In this document: positions 9,119 to 49,939 of the stretch, in pieces | How positions within the stretch are numbered: position 1 is the first letter of the stretch | Layout: every line of letters begins with the position of its first letter | IMG/VR virus record: IMGVR_UViG_3300036790_000209 | Location: 1 to 51,261 of that record | DNA: 51,261 nucleotides | Reading direction: 5' to 3' (one strand) | From: a virus | Notes under the pieces: model-generated | Seen by the model: only the letters and a program-made list of their open reading frames with translations | Database searches by the model: none | Told to the model about the DNA's origin: nothing | Program-made: the position numbers and the translations under genes

Positions 9119-9946
9119 CTATTCGTAGATTGTTACGCCGTCAAACGACAGGCCCTCGACCTTGGCATACGGGTTCGGCTTCATGGCCTGTTTCAGTTGA
9201 TCGATGTAGACTTGATTGGCGGACAGGCCGGTTAACATAACCTTCCCATGCACCCGGCTATAGCGGCCACACTCTAATCTAACTCGCATGACCATTTTGG
9301 ATTCCCCCCGCGCGTTGACTACGATTTCAATCGGCCAGTTCGCATGGTCCTCATCCGTCTTGCTGAAGAATGCTTCCATCTTGACATGGGAGTGAACCGC
9401 TGCGATGGTCTCTGGGCGAGCACGAAACCCTTCATCCGGCATTTCGACATGAGCACCACTTGCAGACTGAGGAGGGAAATACATCTCGGTAACCTTGCCT
9501 CGGCCCGTGATAGCATCGATTGTGCCGATGAGGTAAGCCATCCATTCGGTGTCGAATGAGTTGGCCAACTCAATCCAGGCTTGGTACATGCCGCAGGGTA
9601 TCTCGACGATTGGCTCCTTGACAATAGGACAGCCCTTCACATCGGCTACTTCGCAGGTCCAATCCAAGTTTAGCTTGGGTTCGATAACTACCGGTCGATT
9701 GTCGATGTCACGGTGGTTCCAGCCATCCCAATTAGAGCGCCTCCCATCACCACTCGCTCCGTTGCCATTATTCCCTTCGCTCACATAACTCGCGTTATGC
9801 AGCAGCGCCGCCGCCGCGACATCATGATTCAAGGGGGCGGGTTGTTCGAGTACCCTCAACCAACCTTCTTGCAGGATATGGCGAACTTTCTTGTCCTTCA
9901 TCTTCTTTGACACTGGATTCTCCCTTCGATTGAATATTGACCACAT
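9119..9946 (-). CDS. JAB/MPN (JAMM) isopeptidase-like protein, 275 aa
   Basis: The full JAMM metal signature is present: E134 in EWMAYLIG, then H185-S-H187-x7-S195-x2-D198. This is the zinc site of deubiquitinase-type JAB proteases. The catalytic domain spans about residues 90-275. The first 90 residues are a Gly/Asn-rich, probably flexible region. In this cassette the expected substrate is the Ubl-like protein (12364-12609), either trimmed to expose its C-terminus or removed from targets. The start at 9946 is uncertain: a GTG at 9913 has the better ribosome binding site AAGGGAG. It follows the membrane peptide gene after three bases. Confidence 0.88.
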   Translation of the reverse strand: MWSIFNRRENPVSKKMKDKKVRHILQEGWLRVLEQPAPLNHDVAAAALLHNASYVSEGNNGNGASGDGRRSNWDGWNHRDIDNRPVVIEPKLNLDWTCEVADVKGCPIVKEPIVEIPCGMYQAWIELANSFDTEWMAYLIGTIDAITGRGKVTEMYFPPQSASGAHVEMPDEGFRARPETIAAVHSHVKMEAFFSKTDEDHANWPIEIVVNARGESKMVMRVRLECGRYSRVHGKVMLTGLSANQVYIDQLKQAMKPNPYAKVEGLSFDGVTIYE

Positions 9947-9949
9947 AAG

Positions 9950-10048
9950 TTACCATCCCAACCAGTCGGCCAGGAACACTACCGCGCTCCAGAACACGTT
10001 CCAGATAATCAGAGCCGCTAGGATGGCTCCTACAATACTCCAAAACAT
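9950..10048 (-). CDS. Tiny single-pass membrane protein in the Ubl cassette, 32 aa
   Basis: Below usual length cut-offs, but preceded by the strong ribosome binding site AGGAGG six bases from ATG. The product is almost all hydrophobic (MFWSIVGAILAALIIWNVFW, then SAVVFLADWLGW): one transmembrane helix with Trp at both interfaces. It sits exactly between the E1-like and JAB genes with 1- and 3-base gaps. It might anchor the conjugation proteins at the membrane or act as a regulatory or toxic peptide. No homologue recognised. Confidence 0.65.
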   Translation of the reverse strand: MFWSIVGAILAALIIWNVFWSAVVFLADWLGW

Positions 10049-10049
10049 G

Positions 10050-10727
10050 TCAGACCTCCTGATACTGCCTAACCTGTAGACCGTCCTTCCAATCTACTCG
10101 AAAAGTGTCGCGGATCGGCTGATCTAGCAGGATGTAGTAGCAAGCCATGGAAGCAGCCATGGCGCATGGACCTACGAATTGAGGGACGCTTGTGTAGCCG
10201 GGTTGGCCTTCCAGCTCGCTCGCCCATTCCGCCGGGGTTCCCGAAATAGACATCCCTAAACCATCCGCGCCTAGTTCAATATAACGGCCAGCGCGGATGG
10301 CATCCACCTCTGGCTGCCTAAGATGCCCTGCAGGATGCCCTTTAACGGCCTTGTAGACCTCTCTGCGCGATCGGAGCGAATCGGTTGAGCAAACTACCCT
10401 ATTCGCGCTTGAAACCGCCTCACAATGGCTGGGAACCTCAAAATCGAAGTGTCCATAGGCTCGAATGGCTGTCTCCGGCCTGGCTTTGCGAATCAAAGCC
10501 GCCAGGGCTAAGGACTTAGGCTTACCGATGTCCTCCGGGGTGAATGGCAGGCGATTCAGGTTATGCTCGCTGATCTCATCCCCATCGAATAGAGCCAGCT
10601 CTCGCACCCCTGCCAGCCCGAGGAAGTACCCACACCATGCTCCAATTCCCCCACATCCTACCACTACGATCTTCTGATCCCTTTGGATGCCAAGGGATTC
10701 TTGACGTAGATAGATATTCTCACTCAT
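10050..10727 (-). CDS. E1-like (ThiF/MoeB family) adenylating enzyme, 225 aa
   Basis: The Rossmann ATP-binding motif GCGGIG lies at residues 24-29. LFDGDEISEHNLNR follows at 47-59, with the ATP-binding Asp, Asn and Arg, then K71 and the Mg-binding Asp in CSTDSLRSR (D116). A later QPGYTSVPQFVGPCAMAAS carries C188, a candidate thioester cysteine, although the CxxC zinc pairs of ThiF/MoeB are absent. The expected reaction is adenylation of the C-terminal Gly of a ubiquitin-like protein. It overlaps the preceding gene by four bases (ATGA). The short length suggests a minimal single-domain E1. Confidence 0.88.
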   Translation of the reverse strand: MSENIYLRQESLGIQRDQKIVVVGCGGIGAWCGYFLGLAGVRELALFDGDEISEHNLNRLPFTPEDIGKPKSLALAALIRKARPETAIRAYGHFDFEVPSHCEAVSSANRVVCSTDSLRSRREVYKAVKGHPAGHLRQPEVDAIRAGRYIELGADGLGMSISGTPAEWASELEGQPGYTSVPQFVGPCAMAASMACYYILLDQPIRDTFRVDWKDGLQVRQYQEV

Positions 10728-10912
10728 TTGCGTCCTCGCTTCCCGGCCTTCTTGGCCTTCCCCACTTTACGTTTTCTACCCTTGGGAGGTAACAACGTCA
10801 GACCTGTTCTTGGATCGGTCCACGGTAGCCCCTTGCGGTGATTCTGGCGCATGGCCTCTACTACCTCGTCAGCGTCTAGGGTAGCAGCCTCACTCGTCCA
10901 CTCATAAGTCAT
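10724..10912 (-). CDS. Small protein with Lys/Arg tail in the Ubl cassette, 62 aa
   Basis: The start at 10912 has AGGAG six bases upstream; an in-frame start at 10942 is inferior. The N-terminal half is acidic and probably helical (EAATLDADEVVEAMRQ). A GLPWTDPRTGLTLLPPKG segment follows, and the last 15 residues are nearly all Lys, Arg, Gly and Ala. Such a tail could bind nucleic acid or offer lysines for conjugation. It is translationally coupled to the E1-like gene. No family recognised. Confidence 0.65.
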   Translation of the reverse strand: MTYEWTSEAATLDADEVVEAMRQNHRKGLPWTDPRTGLTLLPPKGRKRKVGKAKKAGKRGRK

Positions 10913-10945
10913 CTGACTCTCCTGGATTAGCGTTACTACCATCCC

Positions 10946-11004
10946 ATACTATAGTAGGATATAGTATAGTATACTATAGTATATATGGTAGTCATGGTAG
11001 TCAT
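10946..11004. repeat. AT-rich palindromes plus tandem GGTAGTCAT repeat
   Basis: Two copies of the perfect palindrome ACTATAGT (10948-10955 and 10973-10980) flank TATAGTATAGTATA, itself part of the palindrome ATAGTATACTAT. Immediately after lie two exact tandem copies of GGTAGTCAT (10987-10995, 10996-11004). The element lies between the E2-like gene and the gene coupled to E1. It is a plausible operator, internal promoter or cruciform. Confidence 0.7.
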
Positions 11005-11024
11005 GGTTACCGAGGCTACCGTCC

Positions 11025-12242
11025 CTACCGTCTCCGCGTAGTGCCCTCTTGAGTCCAAATTACTCCCGGTGCCTCCCGTTCAACGATCATGGGATGGTAG
11101 CTAGTGGGGTCGAAGTAATCCCCTTTACGGTCCCACTCAGTCATAAACTCCCCTACTTGTGGGGGCACAAACGCGCGTACTGCCGGGGACAAATTATATT
11201 CCCTAACCAGTAAACTCGACAGATTCACTTCCTTGAACGCTCGATTAATCATGACTTCAATGCGTACCAAATCATCTAGACTGGCTAGTCTCTCCGGCAA
11301 CCCTTGTGGCTGGCAGCAGAACCCTGAGTAATCCGCATGAGGCAGCTTCAACCCATATTGATCCAAACGGGCATTCTCTAATTGGAACGACCCATCAACC
11401 GGATTGAACGCTATCCAGAACGGCACCTTTACCATGCCAGCCGGAATCGCAGGCCACTCAAGGTTAACCTTTCGGGGAGGTGCGATTTCCTCGTTATCCT
11501 CGCCTAGGTTAGGTATGCTCCAATCCGGCCAAGTAAACTTAAGAGGGCAAAAGTTAATAACCCCTTGGACGGCAATCAACCCGTCATGAACGCGCTTAAC
11601 AGGAATGTTACCCACCCATGACGGGATAGCTAACTCCCTCCCGCGCGCTTGAGCGAACTCAATTCGCTGCCTTTGGACCGCAGCCATTTCCACTTCAGCC
11701 TGTTGACGAATAATGACCGCTTCACGCTGTGCCGCAGCGAGCAATGCGATCCGTTGCATGGCGATTGCCTGTGCGGCTGATTTGCGCATCCGGTTAAGCA
11801 GCTTCACCGGCGCGCCTGACTCCGCGATTGCGTTCAACCGGAATAATTTACCTCCTATCGACAAGAAGGACGGTTGGGAAGCGGCTAGGTTCTCCGCGAT
11901 GTCCATGTCTCCCATAATCTCGCTCACAGTCGATTCGCCGTTCAAAGTTGGCGCGATCTCCGTGAGATAGCAACGAATGGCGTCGGCCAGAGCGGATGGG
12001 GGGAGGGGATTCCCCCTGTGGGTAAACCCGTAAGAGCTCCCACTTAGATACGTCTGTAACGTTGTCCCCCGTTGCTGAGCGGGCCGCGTATAGTTCCGCA
12101 ATTCAGGAGGCAAATAACTCCTGAACGCCACCATGGGCTGCCTGAGCACATGATCGCTTACGTCTCGATCTCCGATGGTGGCAAGGAGCGATAAACTATT
12201 CCCATTGTCTTCTGGGGTGATCTCCACTCGTATCTCTTGCAT
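11025..12242 (-). CDS. Candidate E2-like protein of the Ubl cassette, 405 aa
   Basis: Three parts are visible. The N-terminal 140 residues are of unknown fold. Residues about 150-205 are a charged helix rich in Ala, Gln and Arg, likely a coiled coil. The C-terminal part contains VPFWIAFNPVDGSFQL and then LPHADYSGFCCQ (300-311), followed by a long helix. The Pro-His strand, short gap and Gly-x-Cys recall the pattern of divergent bacterial and plasmid E2-like (RWD/UBC-fold) proteins, where the Cys would carry the Ubl thioester; C309 or C310 is the candidate. The position between Ubl and E1 genes supports this. I infer the fold from motif and context, not alignment. Confidence 0.5.
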   Translation of the reverse strand: MQEIRVEITPEDNGNSLSLLATIGDRDVSDHVLRQPMVAFRSYLPPELRNYTRPAQQRGTTLQTYLSGSSYGFTHRGNPLPPSALADAIRCYLTEIAPTLNGESTVSEIMGDMDIAENLAASQPSFLSIGGKLFRLNAIAESGAPVKLLNRMRKSAAQAIAMQRIALLAAAQREAVIIRQQAEVEMAAVQRQRIEFAQARGRELAIPSWVGNIPVKRVHDGLIAVQGVINFCPLKFTWPDWSIPNLGEDNEEIAPPRKVNLEWPAIPAGMVKVPFWIAFNPVDGSFQLENARLDQYGLKLPHADYSGFCCQPQGLPERLASLDDLVRIEVMINRAFKEVNLSSLLVREYNLSPAVRAFVPPQVGEFMTEWDRKGDYFDPTSYHPMIVEREAPGVIWTQEGTTRRR

Positions 12243-12306
12243 TACCTTACTCCCTTCCGTTTGAGGGTTATCATGCGCCCTTTGAGTCGCCCACAGTCTT
12301 AGTAGA

Positions 12307-12340
12307 CCCCTCGACTAGGGGACTGTCGCCAATCCCCTAG
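12307..12340 (-). promoter_or_regulatory. Mutually exclusive hairpins before the E2-like gene
   Basis: On the minus-strand transcript, CTAGGGGA and TCCCCTAG form a perfect 8-bp stem (plus positions 12315-12322 and 12333-12340). The same C-tract can instead pair as CCCCT-agtcg-AGGGG (12307-12311 with 12317-12321). The two folds share bases and cannot coexist. The element lies between the Ubl stop and the E2-like start, where an attenuator or differential-expression element is plausible. Confidence 0.55.
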
Positions 12341-12363
12341 TGCGTGAGACCTTCCAAGGGCGG

Positions 12364-12609
12364 TTAGCCTCGCGCGTCCTTAGCCACCAACTCAACCAAG
12401 GTGGCTCCAAGATCGCTGAGGGTCTTGCCTCCCTGCGAGGTATCGGCCTTCGACCCGTTGACCAGCACATTAAACGTTTTCAGGCCATGTGAGGTGCTGT
12501 AGTACTTGGCGACATCGGCGAGCTTCTCGCTTCCGTCGGCATGGCCTACTATTTCCCCGTTTACCTTGACTTCGACTTCCAAAGCGTTGCTATCCCAAAC
12601 ATTATTCAT
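12364..12609 (-). CDS. Ubiquitin-like beta-grasp protein candidate ending in Arg-Gly, 81 aa
   Basis: Length and secondary-structure order fit a beta-grasp fold: a strand hairpin (ALEVEVKVNGEIVGHADG), a helix (SEKLADVAKYYSTSHGL), a strand (TFNVLVNGSK), then a final strand (ATLVELVAKDARG). The protein stops directly at Arg-Gly, resembling mature ubiquitin (Arg-Gly-Gly) with one Gly, so it may not need processing. E1-like, E2-like and JAB genes follow downstream in the same operon. The ribosome binding site AAGGAAGG is clear. Expected role: the modifier attached to proteins or another acceptor. Distinct from ThiS/MoaD in lacking Gly-Gly. Confidence 0.65.
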   Translation of the reverse strand: MNNVWDSNALEVEVKVNGEIVGHADGSEKLADVAKYYSTSHGLKTFNVLVNGSKADTSQGGKTLSDLGATLVELVAKDARG

Positions 12610-41989: not shown

Positions 41990-42606
41990 TCCGCAGACTT
42001 GCATCCATTGCCCTCCTCCTGGGCCTGATCGCGCTAGGAATGCGAGCGCATCAACTTAGCGGTCCGATGTTTCCCGGCCCGGGAATGCCAGCGTCCAGTG
42101 GAAGCTACACCGGGATCACCTGTCAAAACTCCACCACGCATGATACGAACGACGGCGGTGGAGACACTACGGCTACGGTTGGAAACTACTGTACAACGGG
42201 AAACGATCCATCTGGCTATACACTGACTAATTTGAATGCCGATTTGCGTGTGGCGGCGCTGAGCACGCTTTATTTAGCTCTCTATACCGACACCACCAGC
42301 GGATGCACGGGAAGCGTCCCGCATTGTCAAAACACGCTAATCTGCGATGCCTCCCTCGGCCCTAGTATAATCGTAGGAACGAATTCCGTGCTCCCCACTG
42401 GATGCGGGACGCTCGCCGCCAATACGATTTATTGGATAAATTACCAAACAGGGGACGGAACTGATGCCCTGGGAGTTAATTCAACAGGACCAACGGACTT
42501 GCCATGGAGAAGCGGTACAACAGCCGGAACCTGGCCCAGCCCATTCGCGGCGGATAACGCAGACAACGTAGACGACCAACTTTGGATGACAGGGACCAAC
42601 AATTAA
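41986..42606 (+). CDS. Secreted/fibre-accessory protein with signal peptide, 206 aa, GTG start
   Basis: The GTG overlaps the upstream stop. The N-terminus MIRRLASIALLLGLIALGMR is signal-peptide-like. The rest is beta-rich with about eight cysteines (TGITCQNSTTHDTNDGGGDT; TSGCTGSVPHCQNTLICDAS) that could form disulfides outside the cytoplasm. Third of four adjacent signal-bearing genes. No family recognised. Confidence 0.6.
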   Translation: MIRRLASIALLLGLIALGMRAHQLSGPMFPGPGMPASSGSYTGITCQNSTTHDTNDGGGDTTATVGNYCTTGNDPSGYTLTNLNADLRVAALSTLYLALYTDTTSGCTGSVPHCQNTLICDASLGPSIIVGTNSVLPTGCGTLAANTIYWINYQTGDGTDALGVNSTGPTDLPWRSGTTAGTWPSPFAADNADNVDDQLWMTGTNN

Positions 42607-44567
42607 TGCGTCGATGTCTCCTGTTGGCTCTGATCCTTGCCGCGCCAATCACCCATGCGCAATCCGTATTCCCAGGGCAGAGCGGTGATCCGGTAGGATA
42701 TGCGGCCATCGGCTCGCTGGGAACGTCGGCGTGTCCGTCAGTCACCAGCGGAACGTCCGGCAGTCCAAACTTCATCTCTAACTGTAAATACAGCACGTGT
42801 CCGTCGCTGACTGGAATCTCCTACGTGGTGTTTATGTCCGTGGATTTCAACTGCGGGACGGACACTCTAACCGTGGACGGCAGCCACATCACCTTCTACG
42901 GCTCGCGCATACAGTCAAACAACTCCTGCACAACAGGCTGCTTCGGCGTTAATACCTATGTGACGGGCGCCTACGAGACTTTCATGTACACGTCGATCAC
43001 GCCGCTCGCGTCCCAAAACGCGACTCCTCCCGGCTACACATGGCCGTCGGCGGGAGCGGGCGAGAATACGACCGATTGCACATCAGACGCCTATTGTACG
43101 CCGGGGGCACACAGTTATCAGTACGGCATCCAGCTAGGTTCATCCGCCGCGCAGCATGTTTACATCGACCACGCCGACGTGTGGGGCTTTGGAAATTCCA
43201 TTGACCTGTATCAAGCTACCGTTGGACCCACCACGATCGCGGGCAGTCAGATTCACGATGCCGCCGACCCGGACACTTACAGTTACCACACCGACGGCCC
43301 GGGCTATCTAAACAGCGGCGCGGGCGTCAACAACGTCATCGTTCAGGGGAACACAATTGCTTCGCTTGGGAACACCAACGGGATTGCATTCCAGGCGGCC
43401 ACGAGCGGTTATAGCGGACTGCTTATCAATTTTAACTACCTCAGCGGCTTCGGTAAAAACTTCGCCGGCTGCGATCCAGGCTCGACGCCCTGCACCAACT
43501 CGACGGCCTACGGCAACGTCTTTGGCACCGATGTGATGCCTTACTACGGCCCGAATTACGGCTGGCAGGGGGGCACAAATTCCGTGTGGGCCTGCAACAA
43601 AATTGCTTTCGCCACGGGCACCACATGGACCGGCGGCGACGGCTGGACGCCCGTTTCGGGCGACAATGGGAAATACTGGCTCTATAGTTCAGATAGCGCG
43701 CCCAGCAGCTCGACCGACCAAGGAGGCAATACTATCTGCGGAATTTTGAATCCAGGCGATCTTGCTTTCAAGGCGGAAGGAACAGGCACAACTTCATCGG
43801 CCCAGACCGTCACGTTGACCAACGGGAACAGCGCCACGCTGACCATCAGTTCGGTGGCGCTCGAAACGGGAACGCAGTTTACGATCTCAGCCAACACCTG
43901 CGGATCATCGCTCACGTCTGGAAGCAGCTGCACGATTTCAGTCGAGTTCACCCCCGGCGCGCAGGGTCCGCAAACCGATCAGTTGCAGATCACCGACAAC
44001 TCGCCGTCATCCAGCAGCCCCGAATTCGTGCCGCTGATCGGACTGGGCACGAGTGGCAGCGGTTCAGCCAGCACTCCCACGTTCTCTCCGGGCGCGGGGA
44101 CGTATGTCGGAACGCAAACGGTCGCAATTTCTACCTCGGCAGGAACAGTGATCTGTTGGAACACGACAGGCTCGCCAGCCACGAACGGCGCGACCGGCTG
44201 CACCACTGGAACGCTCATCAGCGGGACATCGGGGAATATTACCGTATCGTCCAGCGAGACAGTCTACGCCGTGGCGGGCGGAACGGGATATACGGACAGT
44301 TCGGCAGGCAGCGCGGCCTATGTGATTGTGACCATCCCCGCGACGCCTAACATGAATATGTTAGCAATGTTTGGGAGGGATGGTAAACCTTTTAGCCTTA
44401 GTGGGTTCGTGCTCTCCGGTGACGGCGAAGCGCAGCACGCAGTAGGACGCCACGATAACCACGAAAATCAGGAATGGCATGTCATTTCTCCTATCGATCA
44501 AATTGTGGGCATACAGAATAGCACACTTTCTGGATTGAGCGCGCTGCTATTTGGTGTCCCCTGGTGA
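42606..44567 (+). CDS. Secreted beta-helix fibre with Hydin-like and chitobiase-C-like domains, 653 aa
   Basis: The ATG overlaps the previous stop (TAATG); a signal peptide (MRRCLLLALILAAPITHAQS) follows. The body is a parallel beta-helix of pectate-lyase type (HVYIDHADVWGFGNSIDLYQ). Then come an ASPM/SPD-2/Hydin-type Ig domain (SAQTVTLTNGNSATLTISSV) and a chitobiase/hexosaminidase C-terminal-like domain (STPTFSPGAGTYVGTQTVAI). Such domains are common in secreted bacterial proteins. The last 70 residues run antisense through a small minus-strand gene and look unlike the rest, so the original C-terminus may be lost. Confidence 0.65.
   Translation: MRRCLLLALILAAPITHAQSVFPGQSGDPVGYAAIGSLGTSACPSVTSGTSGSPNFISNCKYSTCPSLTGISYVVFMSVDFNCGTDTLTVDGSHITFYGSRIQSNNSCTTGCFGVNTYVTGAYETFMYTSITPLASQNATPPGYTWPSAGAGENTTDCTSDAYCTPGAHSYQYGIQLGSSAAQHVYIDHADVWGFGNSIDLYQATVGPTTIAGSQIHDAADPDTYSYHTDGPGYLNSGAGVNNVIVQGNTIASLGNTNGIAFQAATSGYSGLLINFNYLSGFGKNFAGCDPGSTPCTNSTAYGNVFGTDVMPYYGPNYGWQGGTNSVWACNKIAFATGTTWTGGDGWTPVSGDNGKYWLYSSDSAPSSSTDQGGNTICGILNPGDLAFKAEGTGTTSSAQTVTLTNGNSATLTISSVALETGTQFTISANTCGSSLTSGSSCTISVEFTPGAQGPQTDQLQITDNSPSSSSPEFVPLIGLGTSGSGSASTPTFSPGAGTYVGTQTVAISTSAGTVICWNTTGSPATNGATGCTTGTLISGTSGNITVSSSETVYAVAGGTGYTDSSAGSAAYVIVTIPATPNMNMLAMFGRDGKPFSLSGFVLSGDGEAQHAVGRHDNHENQEWHVISPIDQIVGIQNSTLSGLSALLFGVPW
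44361..44480 (-). CDS. Antisense small membrane protein, 39 aa
   Basis: MPFLIFVVIVASYCVLRFAV forms a transmembrane helix; a basic tail (TGEHEPTKAKRFTIPPKHC) follows. AGGAG lies seven bases before the ATG. It is the only minus-strand gene inside the late block and overlaps the 3' part of the fibre gene, suggesting insertion of a small gene that shortened the fibre. Confidence 0.5.
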   Translation of the reverse strand: MPFLIFVVIVASYCVLRFAVTGEHEPTKAKRFTIPPKHC

Positions 44568-47077: not shown

Positions 47078-47240
47078 GCCCACTCATCGATTGCCTAACC
47101 TGGCGGGCGCGTTCCATATCGACCATTTCAATCACCCGATCCAGTTTCGCACGGTAAACCCCTCGTGCGTTTGTATCGATGTGTTTAACTTCCAAGATGT
47201 CTTCGATATCCTGCCACACGCACTCGCGTAACTCAATCAT
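46998..47240 (-). CDS. Hypothetical protein, last gene of the replication block, 80 aa
   Basis: The ATG overlaps the polymerase stop (TGATG) and has GGGAG seven bases upstream. MIELRECVWQDIEDILEVKH continues with a charged helix (YRAKLDRVIEMVDMERARQV). The 3' part overlaps a convergent late gene by 80 bases and is basic and less protein-like, so the true end may have been altered by this overlap. Confidence 0.55.
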   Translation of the reverse strand: MIELRECVWQDIEDILEVKHIDTNARGVYRAKLDRVIEMVDMERARQVRQSMSGPIVKPLQSPLPGQRSRAHGTRRSSEG

Positions 47241-48493
47241 CAGCTGACTCCCTTCATTCCCAGTGGATTAGTAGATTCATCAAACGGTCCCCAATTCCCC
47301 CCTTCGGCGGACATCGAAACCTCGGCACCGATCGTCAAACCGTCCAGCTCAAAAATAGGGGAAGTAAAAACGCTCTGGAACGCCTCCACGACCTCCTGAG
47401 CGCGCCCCATGGGCGGTACGGCCAGCAGGCTGTCGTGCACCGGCAGACGCAGCCAGGGCGCGATTGGCGACCCCCATAGGGCGATGATGAAATTATCCTG
47501 GATCATCGAAGCGGCTGTTTGCGGCCTGCACGCAATCGCTCGCTTAGCGTCATCCCCCAGCACGTAACACTGTCTGCGCCGATCCCACCCAAATACGTGA
47601 AAGAAGCGGTGCCGGGTGCCGAAAGGAGTAGTAAGATACCGATCGTGGGCAGCCTGCTTCAAGGTAGCGTCCCACCAACGCTTCAAGTCCTCCCCCGGCT
47701 CCGTCGCAAGGAGTGTATTCTGTAACCTTCTTGCCACGGCCGTAGTCGGGAACTCATCGGGATACTCATCGTGCATCCGCTCCGGGGTGCCCCGATACGC
47801 CGTTAAGTGCACAACTCGTTTGGCTACTTCCCTTGATTCCTTGGAGTATCGTTTCTTAGCCGCTCGACAGGAAGCCCGGAGGGTTTCAATGTCTGTGTCA
47901 AGCGAAATTGGTTCACCATGTACGACGGAGTTGAACCAATCGTGAATGCCGCATTTGGCGAGCCGTATGTAACGCTCAGATCGAGCGAAGTACCCCACCA
48001 GGACGGCCTCAATAGCCGAACTGTCAACCTCAACAATAACGTGGCCAGGAGGAGCGACAACCATGCGGCGGAATTCATTCGCAAGTTCCGAGCGCTTGGG
48101 AATGTTTTGCAGGTTATAGTCCCTTGCGGATTTCCTCCAGGTAGAAGGATGATGTCCGATTGTTGTGTGAACCCTGTTGTCATGGTCCAGGCTCCATTTA
48201 TAAGTGGAAACCATCTTCCAGCGCTCGCGACAGTCGAGTATGAGTCGAAAGACAGGATGTTTCTTAGCGGCCTGCTTCAGATACTTCTTCTCGGTCGAGA
48301 GGGCGTCTTCGGAGTCGCTGTCCCGGCGCTTGGGCAAGCGCACGCCTAAATGGCCAGCCAACCGAATCACGTCGTCTTGAGAGTCAGGGTTGAACGGCTC
48401 AATGCGCATGAAGCGGTCAGGCAGCGAAGGGCGTTTACGTTTAGGCTGCTCTGCCGCGTCTAACTCATCCAGCAGTTTAGCGAGATCAGTCAA
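47240..48493 (-). CDS. DNA polymerase family A, polymerase domain, 417 aa, TTG start
   Basis: The fingers/palm motifs of PolA are present. The template-primer segment is RVHTTIGHHPSTWRK...DYNLQNIP. Motif A is VIVEVDSSAIEA (D157). Motif B is REVAKRVVHLTAYRG (R221, K225, Y233). Motif C is LPVHDSLLAV (H353, D354), with Ser where Glu is usual. It synthesises phage DNA. The N-terminal thumb and proofreading parts are in the upstream gene. A TTG at 48493 with AAGGGATGG before it is the likely start. The frame continues upstream through a TAG codon into the UDG-exonuclease gene. Confidence 0.88.
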   Translation of the reverse strand: MTDLAKLLDELDAAEQPKRKRPSLPDRFMRIEPFNPDSQDDVIRLAGHLGVRLPKRRDSDSEDALSTEKKYLKQAAKKHPVFRLILDCRERWKMVSTYKWSLDHDNRVHTTIGHHPSTWRKSARDYNLQNIPKRSELANEFRRMVVAPPGHVIVEVDSSAIEAVLVGYFARSERYIRLAKCGIHDWFNSVVHGEPISLDTDIETLRASCRAAKKRYSKESREVAKRVVHLTAYRGTPERMHDEYPDEFPTTAVARRLQNTLLATEPGEDLKRWWDATLKQAAHDRYLTTPFGTRHRFFHVFGWDRRRQCYVLGDDAKRAIACRPQTAASMIQDNFIIALWGSPIAPWLRLPVHDSLLAVPPMGRAQEVVEAFQSVFTSPIFELDGLTIGAEVSMSAEGGNWGPFDESTNPLGMKGVS

Positions 48494-48511
48494 TGTAATT
48501 CCATCCCTTCG

Positions 48512-49939
48512 CTATGAGGATGCGTCCTTCGTCGTTGATGAAGGCGAGTGGGATGGTTCCGCTGGAATTCCACAAGATGACTTGCCACCCAGACTCGGGA
48601 ATAACTCGATCACCCCGGTCAAGTCCTTGGGTGCCCGCTTCCAAAACTTTCGCTTTTTTACACTGTCCGGGACCGCGAGTTGCAGCCTTGCGTTGGCGTC
48701 TTCCCATTCATCCTCCAACCGGTCCATGAAAACCTTCTGCCGCTCCACGTCCACGTTAAGCCCGCGCTCACCCATGACTCTTAGGGGCTCATCAACGAGG
48801 ATGCAATGGCGTTCGAAGCCTTCCCACCTGCCATCCTTCACAAGAATTGCCTTGGTGCCCATGTAGACATCCATCGTAACGGCGTTATCCATTGCGTTAT
48901 ACCACGCAGGCCGCGCTTGGGACTCCGACTTCCACGGCGGTCCACCATAGAAGAAAGGGGCGACCAAGCCCAAGCCCTTTCGGAGGTCCGATTCAAGCCA
49001 GTGCCACGCCCACATACTCGACACGATGCGAGCTGGCAGTCGCAGGCCCGCGTGACGCAATCGTCGGCTATCAAAGTGATTGTCGGCATGTTCAACCATT
49101 TCGTCTGCTGCATCCAGGGCCTCCTGCAAGATGCCGATATAAGGCTCCATCCACGGGAAGGAAATCGCGGTGCCCTGACGCACGCTAAAGCCCGCTCTCA
49201 CGATCGTCCAACTGGCTCCTTCCTGTTCGATTTCTTCTTCGTCCAGGCGATCGCTCTCGGGAGTTTCAATGTCCACGATGAGCGTCGGTATGCGTCCTGT
49301 AGCCAGCAGGCCGCTGCGCAGGTAAACTCTAGCCTCCTCGATGGGAGGGTCAAGCAAGAGGTCATAATGCGTAGGCTCGAATGTTCCATGAGCAATGGTT
49401 CTTGCGCGGTTGAGCGCGAACAGCACGGCCGCGTTTAACTTTTGCTGTCCTCGCTGAACGAAGGATGGATGATAGGTTGGCACAGCGAACACTCCATAGG
49501 GAGTGGGCAATACATAACCGGCAGCGGCCTCGATTCCACTGATTCCGCATATGCGGCGCAGTGCGACATTGCCCATCGGCACAATGACTTTCGGGGACAT
49601 TCGTTCGATGAGGCCGTCCAGGTTGGGCCTACAGTGTTCGATGGCCGCATTGGCGTCCTTATAGCGATTGGGGTAATCCATCCACCCAAGCCGAGTGGGT
49701 TTACACCAAATACTATTGGCTACCATAGTGTCGCCCCGGTCGATATTCACTAATTGAAGTTGGCGATTGAGCATCCCCCCGGCTGCGCCTACAAAGGGCC
49801 TTCCTTCCTTGATCTCATCGATCCATGGAGAGTCCCCAATTATCAGGATGCCGCTGGTCCCGGCGCCGTCGGGGGGAATGAAGCGGATTCCCAGGTCACG
49901 ATGAGGGCAATCTACACAGAATGGTCCGTTAGGAGTCAA
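48512..49939 (-). CDS. Uracil-DNA glycosylase domain fused to 3'-5' exonuclease (N-terminal part of the polymerase), 475 aa
   Basis: Residues 1-180 form a family-4-type UDG: four Cys for a 4Fe-4S cluster (C8, C11, C79, C103), motif 1 GDSPWIDEIKEGRPFVGAAG, motif 2 TYHPSF. Residues 215-365 form a DEDDy exonuclease: D223 and E225 in IVDIETPES, D290 in DNHFDSRR, Y347 and D351 in YNAMDNAV. The following helices resemble the polymerase thumb. The protein would remove or sense uracil and proofread the polymerase encoded next. It ends in TAG; the same frame resumes six codons before the polymerase TTG. The start overlaps the upstream stop by four bases. Confidence 0.85.
   Translation of the reverse strand: MTPNGPFCVDCPHRDLGIRFIPPDGAGTSGILIIGDSPWIDEIKEGRPFVGAAGGMLNRQLQLVNIDRGDTMVANSIWCKPTRLGWMDYPNRYKDANAAIEHCRPNLDGLIERMSPKVIVPMGNVALRRICGISGIEAAAGYVLPTPYGVFAVPTYHPSFVQRGQQKLNAAVLFALNRARTIAHGTFEPTHYDLLLDPPIEEARVYLRSGLLATGRIPTLIVDIETPESDRLDEEEIEQEGASWTIVRAGFSVRQGTAISFPWMEPYIGILQEALDAADEMVEHADNHFDSRRLRHAGLRLPARIVSSMWAWHWLESDLRKGLGLVAPFFYGGPPWKSESQARPAWYNAMDNAVTMDVYMGTKAILVKDGRWEGFERHCILVDEPLRVMGERGLNVDVERQKVFMDRLEDEWEDANARLQLAVPDSVKKRKFWKRAPKDLTGVIELFPSLGGKSSCGIPAEPSHSPSSTTKDASS

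Follow-up and report, generated by a model that had tools for sequence, protein, structure and literature searches.

A putative phage-encoded ubiquitin-like conjugation cassette of Ubl, E2-like, E1-like and JAB proteins in an uncultivated virus

The uncultivated tailed phage represented by virus record IMGVR_UViG_3300036790_000209 was analysed over a window that spans the whole 51,261-nucleotide record and contains terminase, portal and major capsid genes. Between positions 9119 and 12609 the open reading frame (ORF) list places, all on the minus strand, the genes named in an initial annotation made from the sequence alone. The core of this cassette consists of four genes encoding a small ubiquitin-like protein (Ubl), an E2-like protein, an E1-like enzyme and a JAB metallopeptidase, which together are likely to constitute a self-contained and reversible Ubl-conjugation module, mobile and accessory, that probably acts in conflict with the host or with rival phages, its chemistry being suggested by the protein families. 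Only two of the cassette proteins, the ThiF-like enzyme (PF00899) and the JAB protein (PF14464), exceeded the Pfam cut-off, and the 81-residue Ubl and the 405-residue E2-like protein gave no meaningful match in four family libraries.

The Ubl (12364..12609, minus strand) has 81 residues and ends in VAKDARG. The AlphaFold2 model shows a β-grasp fold followed by a loose, flexible C-terminal tail, with a predicted local distance difference test (pLDDT) score of 84.9. Structural similarity search against the PDB revealed that almost all of the matches listed are of the ubiquitin, SUMO or ISG15 type, with a Z-score of up to 7.8, in addition to bacterial Ubls, in agreement with the β-grasp fold anticipated for this gene. 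Among the nine members of the class, namely the window and eight other viral contigs described below, eight possess a C-terminal RG or QG within a conserved tail pattern of KD.(R/Q)G, and two carry one or two extra residues after the Gly. Tails extending past the Gly would have to be cut back, for which the JAB protein would be well suited. A separate contig (L164:39-938) encodes a 299-residue protein in which acidic linkers connect about three Ubl-like repeats, a possible poly-Ubl, with the genes for E2-, E1- and JAB-like proteins lying downstream of it.

The E1-like protein (10050..10727, minus strand) is a standalone ThiF-fold adenylating enzyme of 225 residues, matching PF00899 with E=6.6e-22 as the ThiF assignment had implied. 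Its profile matches the structures of ThiF, MoeB, UBA1, UBA5 and Cap2. The ATP-site residues of the adenylation domain, comprising the GxGGxG motif, Asp50, Asn58-Arg59, Lys71 and Asp116, are invariant in all nine class members, and Cys188 is found in eight of these nine close relatives. The JAB/JAMM metallopeptidase (9119..9946, minus strand; 275 residues; PF14464, E=3.2e-7) contains the segment HSHVKMEAFFSKTD, which corresponds to the full HxHx7SxxD site reported initially, in addition to an upstream Glu134. The complete active site, consisting of Glu134, His185, His187, Ser195 and Asp198, is likewise invariant in the nine members, and the best PDB sequence matches of the JAB profile are AMSH-type deubiquitinases. 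Elsewhere, at L120:7604-9437, a tandem pair of JAB-type genes follows the E1 gene.

The E2-like protein (11025..12242, minus strand; 405 residues) contains LPHADYSGFCCQ and was modelled with a pLDDT of 80.2 and a predicted template modelling score (pTM) of 0.48 for the whole protein. The model consists of an N-terminal region, a long helix (residues 145-201) and a C-terminal UBC-type domain (residues about 203-358), in which a four-strand stretch (residues 223-279) is followed by His302, Cys309 and a helix (residues 322-335). Foldseek gave no significant match to the model as a whole, and an E2 signal appeared when the matches were read by region: the long helix matches unrelated coiled coils, whereas almost all of the matches listed for residues ~198-365 are Tsg101/Vps23 ubiquitin E2 variant (UEV) proteins or E2 enzymes, including Cap2, with weak Z-scores of 4-5.5. 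The predicted layout is weakly consistent with the E2-type fold proposed for this gene. Alignment of 23 E2-like proteins showed that Cys309 is invariant and His302 is more than 90% conserved, so that of the two cysteines suggested earlier as the active residue, Cys309 stands, whereas Cys310, which is not invariant, does not.

Relatives of the 405-residue protein occupy the same cassette position, and the proteins at the E2 position of cassettes in other viral and archaeal-bin contigs possess either HYH...DCWG or HPN...C motifs. Profile comparison linked the window class to the HYH class with a score of 27.3, the highest of 60 column shuffles scoring 20.1, and in turn linked the HYH class to the HPN class with 21.2, compared to a shuffle maximum of 18.9; the direct link from the window class to the HPN class is borderline. 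The HPN-type profile matches only E2 enzymes among PDB sequences (E 0.015-0.09), and one HPN-type relative matches Pfam UQ_con with E=0.0038, below the family cut-off. Altogether, we regard the 405-residue protein as very likely an E2-like enzyme.

Several observations weigh against a conjugation module. The Ubl tail of one class member, L102, ends in RAVWLI instead of Gly. The wider E1 family has no conserved cysteine except that of the GCGG motif, which is itself not universal, and the standard E1 thioester step may therefore be missing; the adenylated Ubl might then pass directly to the E2, or the Ubl might serve as a sulfur carrier. Moreover, the least secure part is the E2 assignment, as the structural Z-scores are low on a whole-protein model of modest pTM, E2 profiles lacking the single HPN-type relative match no PDB sequence, and the 405-residue protein itself matches nothing in Pfam, PHROGs or PADLOC, its sole NCBIfam match (0.032) lying far below the cut-off.

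The E1 cysteine bears on a sulfur-carrier pathway, in which the Ubl would resemble ThiS, MoaD or CysO, the E1 would adenylate it for thiocarboxylation, the JAB protein would trim it and the 405-residue protein would be a partner or scaffold, without any tagging. The short standalone ThiF-type E1, which shares no conserved catalytic cysteine with proteins beyond its own class, fits this scheme, as do a weak match of one distant Ubl relative to Pfam ThiS (E=0.0015) and the occurrence of JAB enzymes alongside sulfur carriers as well (Iyer 2006, PMC1779556). Nevertheless, we consider it improbable, given that an E2-type domain with an invariant Cys and a near-invariant His always travels with the set, and that the scanned neighbouring proteins match no sulfur-pathway family. 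Similarly, the 405-residue protein might be an unrelated scaffold rather than an E2, with the E1, Ubl and JAB proteins working without an E2 in a conjugation like that of the small archaeal modifier proteins (SAMPs). The weak structural scores would suit such a scaffold, and direct sequence evidence for E2 homology depends on bridging relatives; however, the invariant Cys after a conserved His, the four-strand meander followed by a helix, the near-exclusive E2 and UEV structural matches, and the HPN...C proteins in the same cassette of more distant viruses make it a poor candidate. We thus favor reading the four proteins as a Ubl-conjugation module with an E2-like component.

The distribution of the cassette was traced through the major capsid protein, whose relatives led to 80 viral loci, 49 of whose records were scanned for the cassette genes. 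A ThiF protein above the cut-off co-occurs with the 405-residue protein in three of the 49 (G001, G005 and G027), and the JAB and Ubl profiles pick out the identical three records, in all of which the order Ubl, E2-like, E1, JAB is kept. The remaining 46 possess none of the four genes, so no record has a partial set; a fourth capsid-related record, G018, gave a ThiF score of just 13.5 bits and so missed the cut-off. Phages of this group that carry the E1 and JAB genes without the neighbouring genes, a pattern that would have spoken against a joint cassette, were sought and not found among these 49 records. Further scans added five viral contigs of the same class (L098, L100, L101, L102 and L111), so that the fixed four-gene order recurs in eight viral contigs besides the window. 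This recurrence of the four core genes exceeds chance. Among the records of these five contigs, a related capsid gene is present in G051 (contig L100) and G052 (contig L101), and none was detected in G050, G053 or G054, records that are possibly fragments. More distant viral and archaeal-bin contigs hold sets whose E2 motifs reach a near-canonical HPN...Cys. A scan of viral contigs with the E1 alone found no relative, and it was the capsid route that succeeded instead; the 405-residue protein had no match in phage or plasmid records. In host genomes, the JAB scan found nothing, and the E1 scan returned mostly E1 relatives without the remaining genes of the set.

The set is therefore a stable unit that occurs sporadically within one phage group and seems to move between phages. 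This pattern bears on whether the conjugation module might modify the virion or replication proteins of the phage itself, in control of assembly or packaging, with no role in conflict. The position of the set upstream of recombination-type genes, where it could be expressed early with the replication genes, is compatible with such a function. However, the set is present in just three of the 49 capsid-group records and also in viruses without a detectable capsid relative; the cassette thus appears not to be needed for this virion. The initial annotation had put forward the virion or host defence proteins as possible targets, and the scattered occurrence of the set speaks against a function essential to the virion. 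We therefore hold modification of the phage's own proteins to be rather unlikely, and the patchy presence and movement between phages lead us to favor an accessory function in conflict over a core virion role.

In the window, small minus-strand genes surround the cassette, which lies near an NTP (nucleoside triphosphate) pyrophosphohydrolase-like gene and upstream of the recombination-type genes; promoter and terminator scans gave no signal above chance. Two small ORFs lie between the core genes and had been counted among them, an assignment that conservation in the closest cassettes does not support. The hydrophobic 32-residue ORF (9950..10048, minus strand), present in the ORF list, has no counterpart in the three closest cassettes (L093, L094 and L095), in which the E1 and JAB genes overlap or nearly abut, and was rejected as a doubtful, unconserved member. 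The Lys/Arg-rich protein of 72 residues (62 from the second ATG; 10724..10942, minus strand), between the E2 and E1 genes, was likewise rejected as a core part; absent from L094 and L095, it has a counterpart only in the nearest relative L093, a similar 82-residue gene, and is regarded as accessory. In the rest of the window, a family A DNA polymerase gene adjoins a uracil-DNA glycosylase domain protein (47240-49939, minus strand), and a 661-residue protein (42582-44567) matches the ASH (ASPM-SPD-2-Hydin) domain with E=3.5e-9.

Sets of related genes were also seen in other contigs. Flavobacterium phage FpV4 (L002:622-4633) and two gut-associated phages, Dulem virus 41 (L003:2194-5624) and bajarodcaudo virus 1 (L004:1535-5666), encode JAB and ThiF proteins near a uracil-DNA glycosylase. 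Beside these genes lies an E2-like ORF bearing an H...C motif, with another ORF upstream whose small N-terminal stretch is Ubl-like; both were assigned by eye. Contig L161 (6678-9526), from a bin assigned to a Thermoplasmata archaeon, carries a complete HYH-class Ubl-E2-E1-JAB set and possibly represents an archaeal virus or provirus. At L116:570-3225 and L126:6546-9216, the order is Ubl-E1-E2-JAB, and the YHPN...C motifs of the E2-like proteins are close to those of canonical E2s.

A toolkit of this kind is usually described in cells rather than in phages. In content, the phage set resembles the bacterial type 6d operons of Iyer and Aravind, which consist of a standalone Ubl, an E2-like protein, an E1-like protein, a JAB protein and an α-helical protein (PMC1779556): both have separate genes of the same kinds, a small Ubl with a C-terminal Gly, and standalone E1 and JAB proteins. 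However, the type 6d E2s lack an upstream His and possess a conserved downstream His instead (PMC1779556), whereas the conserved His302 of the phage protein is upstream of Cys309. The phage cassette further differs in the long N-terminal region and helix of its E2-like protein, in having no conserved extra α-helical protein, and in being phage-borne.

Other known systems share individual components. The phage E1 and JAB proteins are distantly similar to PRTRC_ThiF and PRTRC_A of NCBIfam, but score 29.4 against a cut-off of 144.75 and 19.8 against 101.8, respectively, with no other PRTRC model matched, and identity with a PRTRC cassette was rejected on these scores. BilABCD also clusters Ubl, E2, E1 and JAB genes for reversible tagging, which in the phage is putative. 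Bil systems have two tandem Ubl domains in BilA, a pseudodimeric E1 in which inactive and active adenylation domains are accompanied by a Cys domain, and a CEHH motif in the E2 (PMC11354881), whereas the phage has a single-domain Ubl of 81 residues, an E1 formed by a single ThiF domain of 225 residues and an LPH...C E2; lacking both the tandem Ubl and the pseudodimeric Cys-domain E1, it was not classed as Bil. Cap2 of the cyclic oligonucleotide-based anti-phage signaling system (CBASS), an E2-E1 fusion in a system that conjugates the CD-NTase (cGAS/DncV-like nucleotidyltransferase) itself (PMC10449767), is among the matches to both the phage E1 profile and the E2-like region of the model. Compared to CBASS Cap2/Cap3, the phage cassette has a Ubl gene and encodes E2 and E1 separately in all nine class members, and was for want of the fusion not identified with Cap2. 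The lambda-type tail-assembly genes TAPI (Ubl) and TAPK (JAB) are likewise phage-borne and are described without an E1 or E2 (PMC1779556), whereas the present cassette adds both. No account of a phage carrying E1, E2, Ubl and JAB genes together turned up in a literature search that did not extend to most subscription journals, an absence that is no proof.

From the genes, their kept order, the folds and the active-site residues, whether observed or modelled, together with what is known of the families, we infer a cycle of activation, transfer and removal. The JAB protein would trim Ubl precursors that have residues past the C-terminal Gly; the ThiF-like E1 would adenylate the Ubl C-terminus using ATP; and the E2-like protein may accept the activated Ubl through Cys309, close to His302, and hand it to a substrate, from which the JAB protein could strip it again. 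The proposal in the initial annotation that the phage can attach and remove a protein tag finds support in the β-grasp Ubl, the E2-type domain and the co-occurrence of the genes in related phages. Least certain is the biological role, which may lie in taking over the host, in counter-defence or in keeping out rival phages. More tentatively, and with some reservation, bacterial and archaeal viruses might own a widespread class of Ubl-E2-E1-JAB cassettes, with E2s graded from nearly canonical HPN...Cys to divergent HYH/LPH...Cys and small E1s that may skip the thioester and hand the Ubl directly to the E2, by which the phage would tag proteins of the host or of rival phages while it infects.

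If the conjugation module is real, the complete set for activation, conjugation and removal would enable a virus to write and erase its own protein tag in its host. Bacteria are known to use Ubl conjugation against phages, as in Bil and CBASS Cap2, and a phage-borne set would reverse this use. In addition, the graded E2-like forms in viruses would bear on the diversification of E2 enzymes, and the target tagged by the phage becomes a concrete, testable question.

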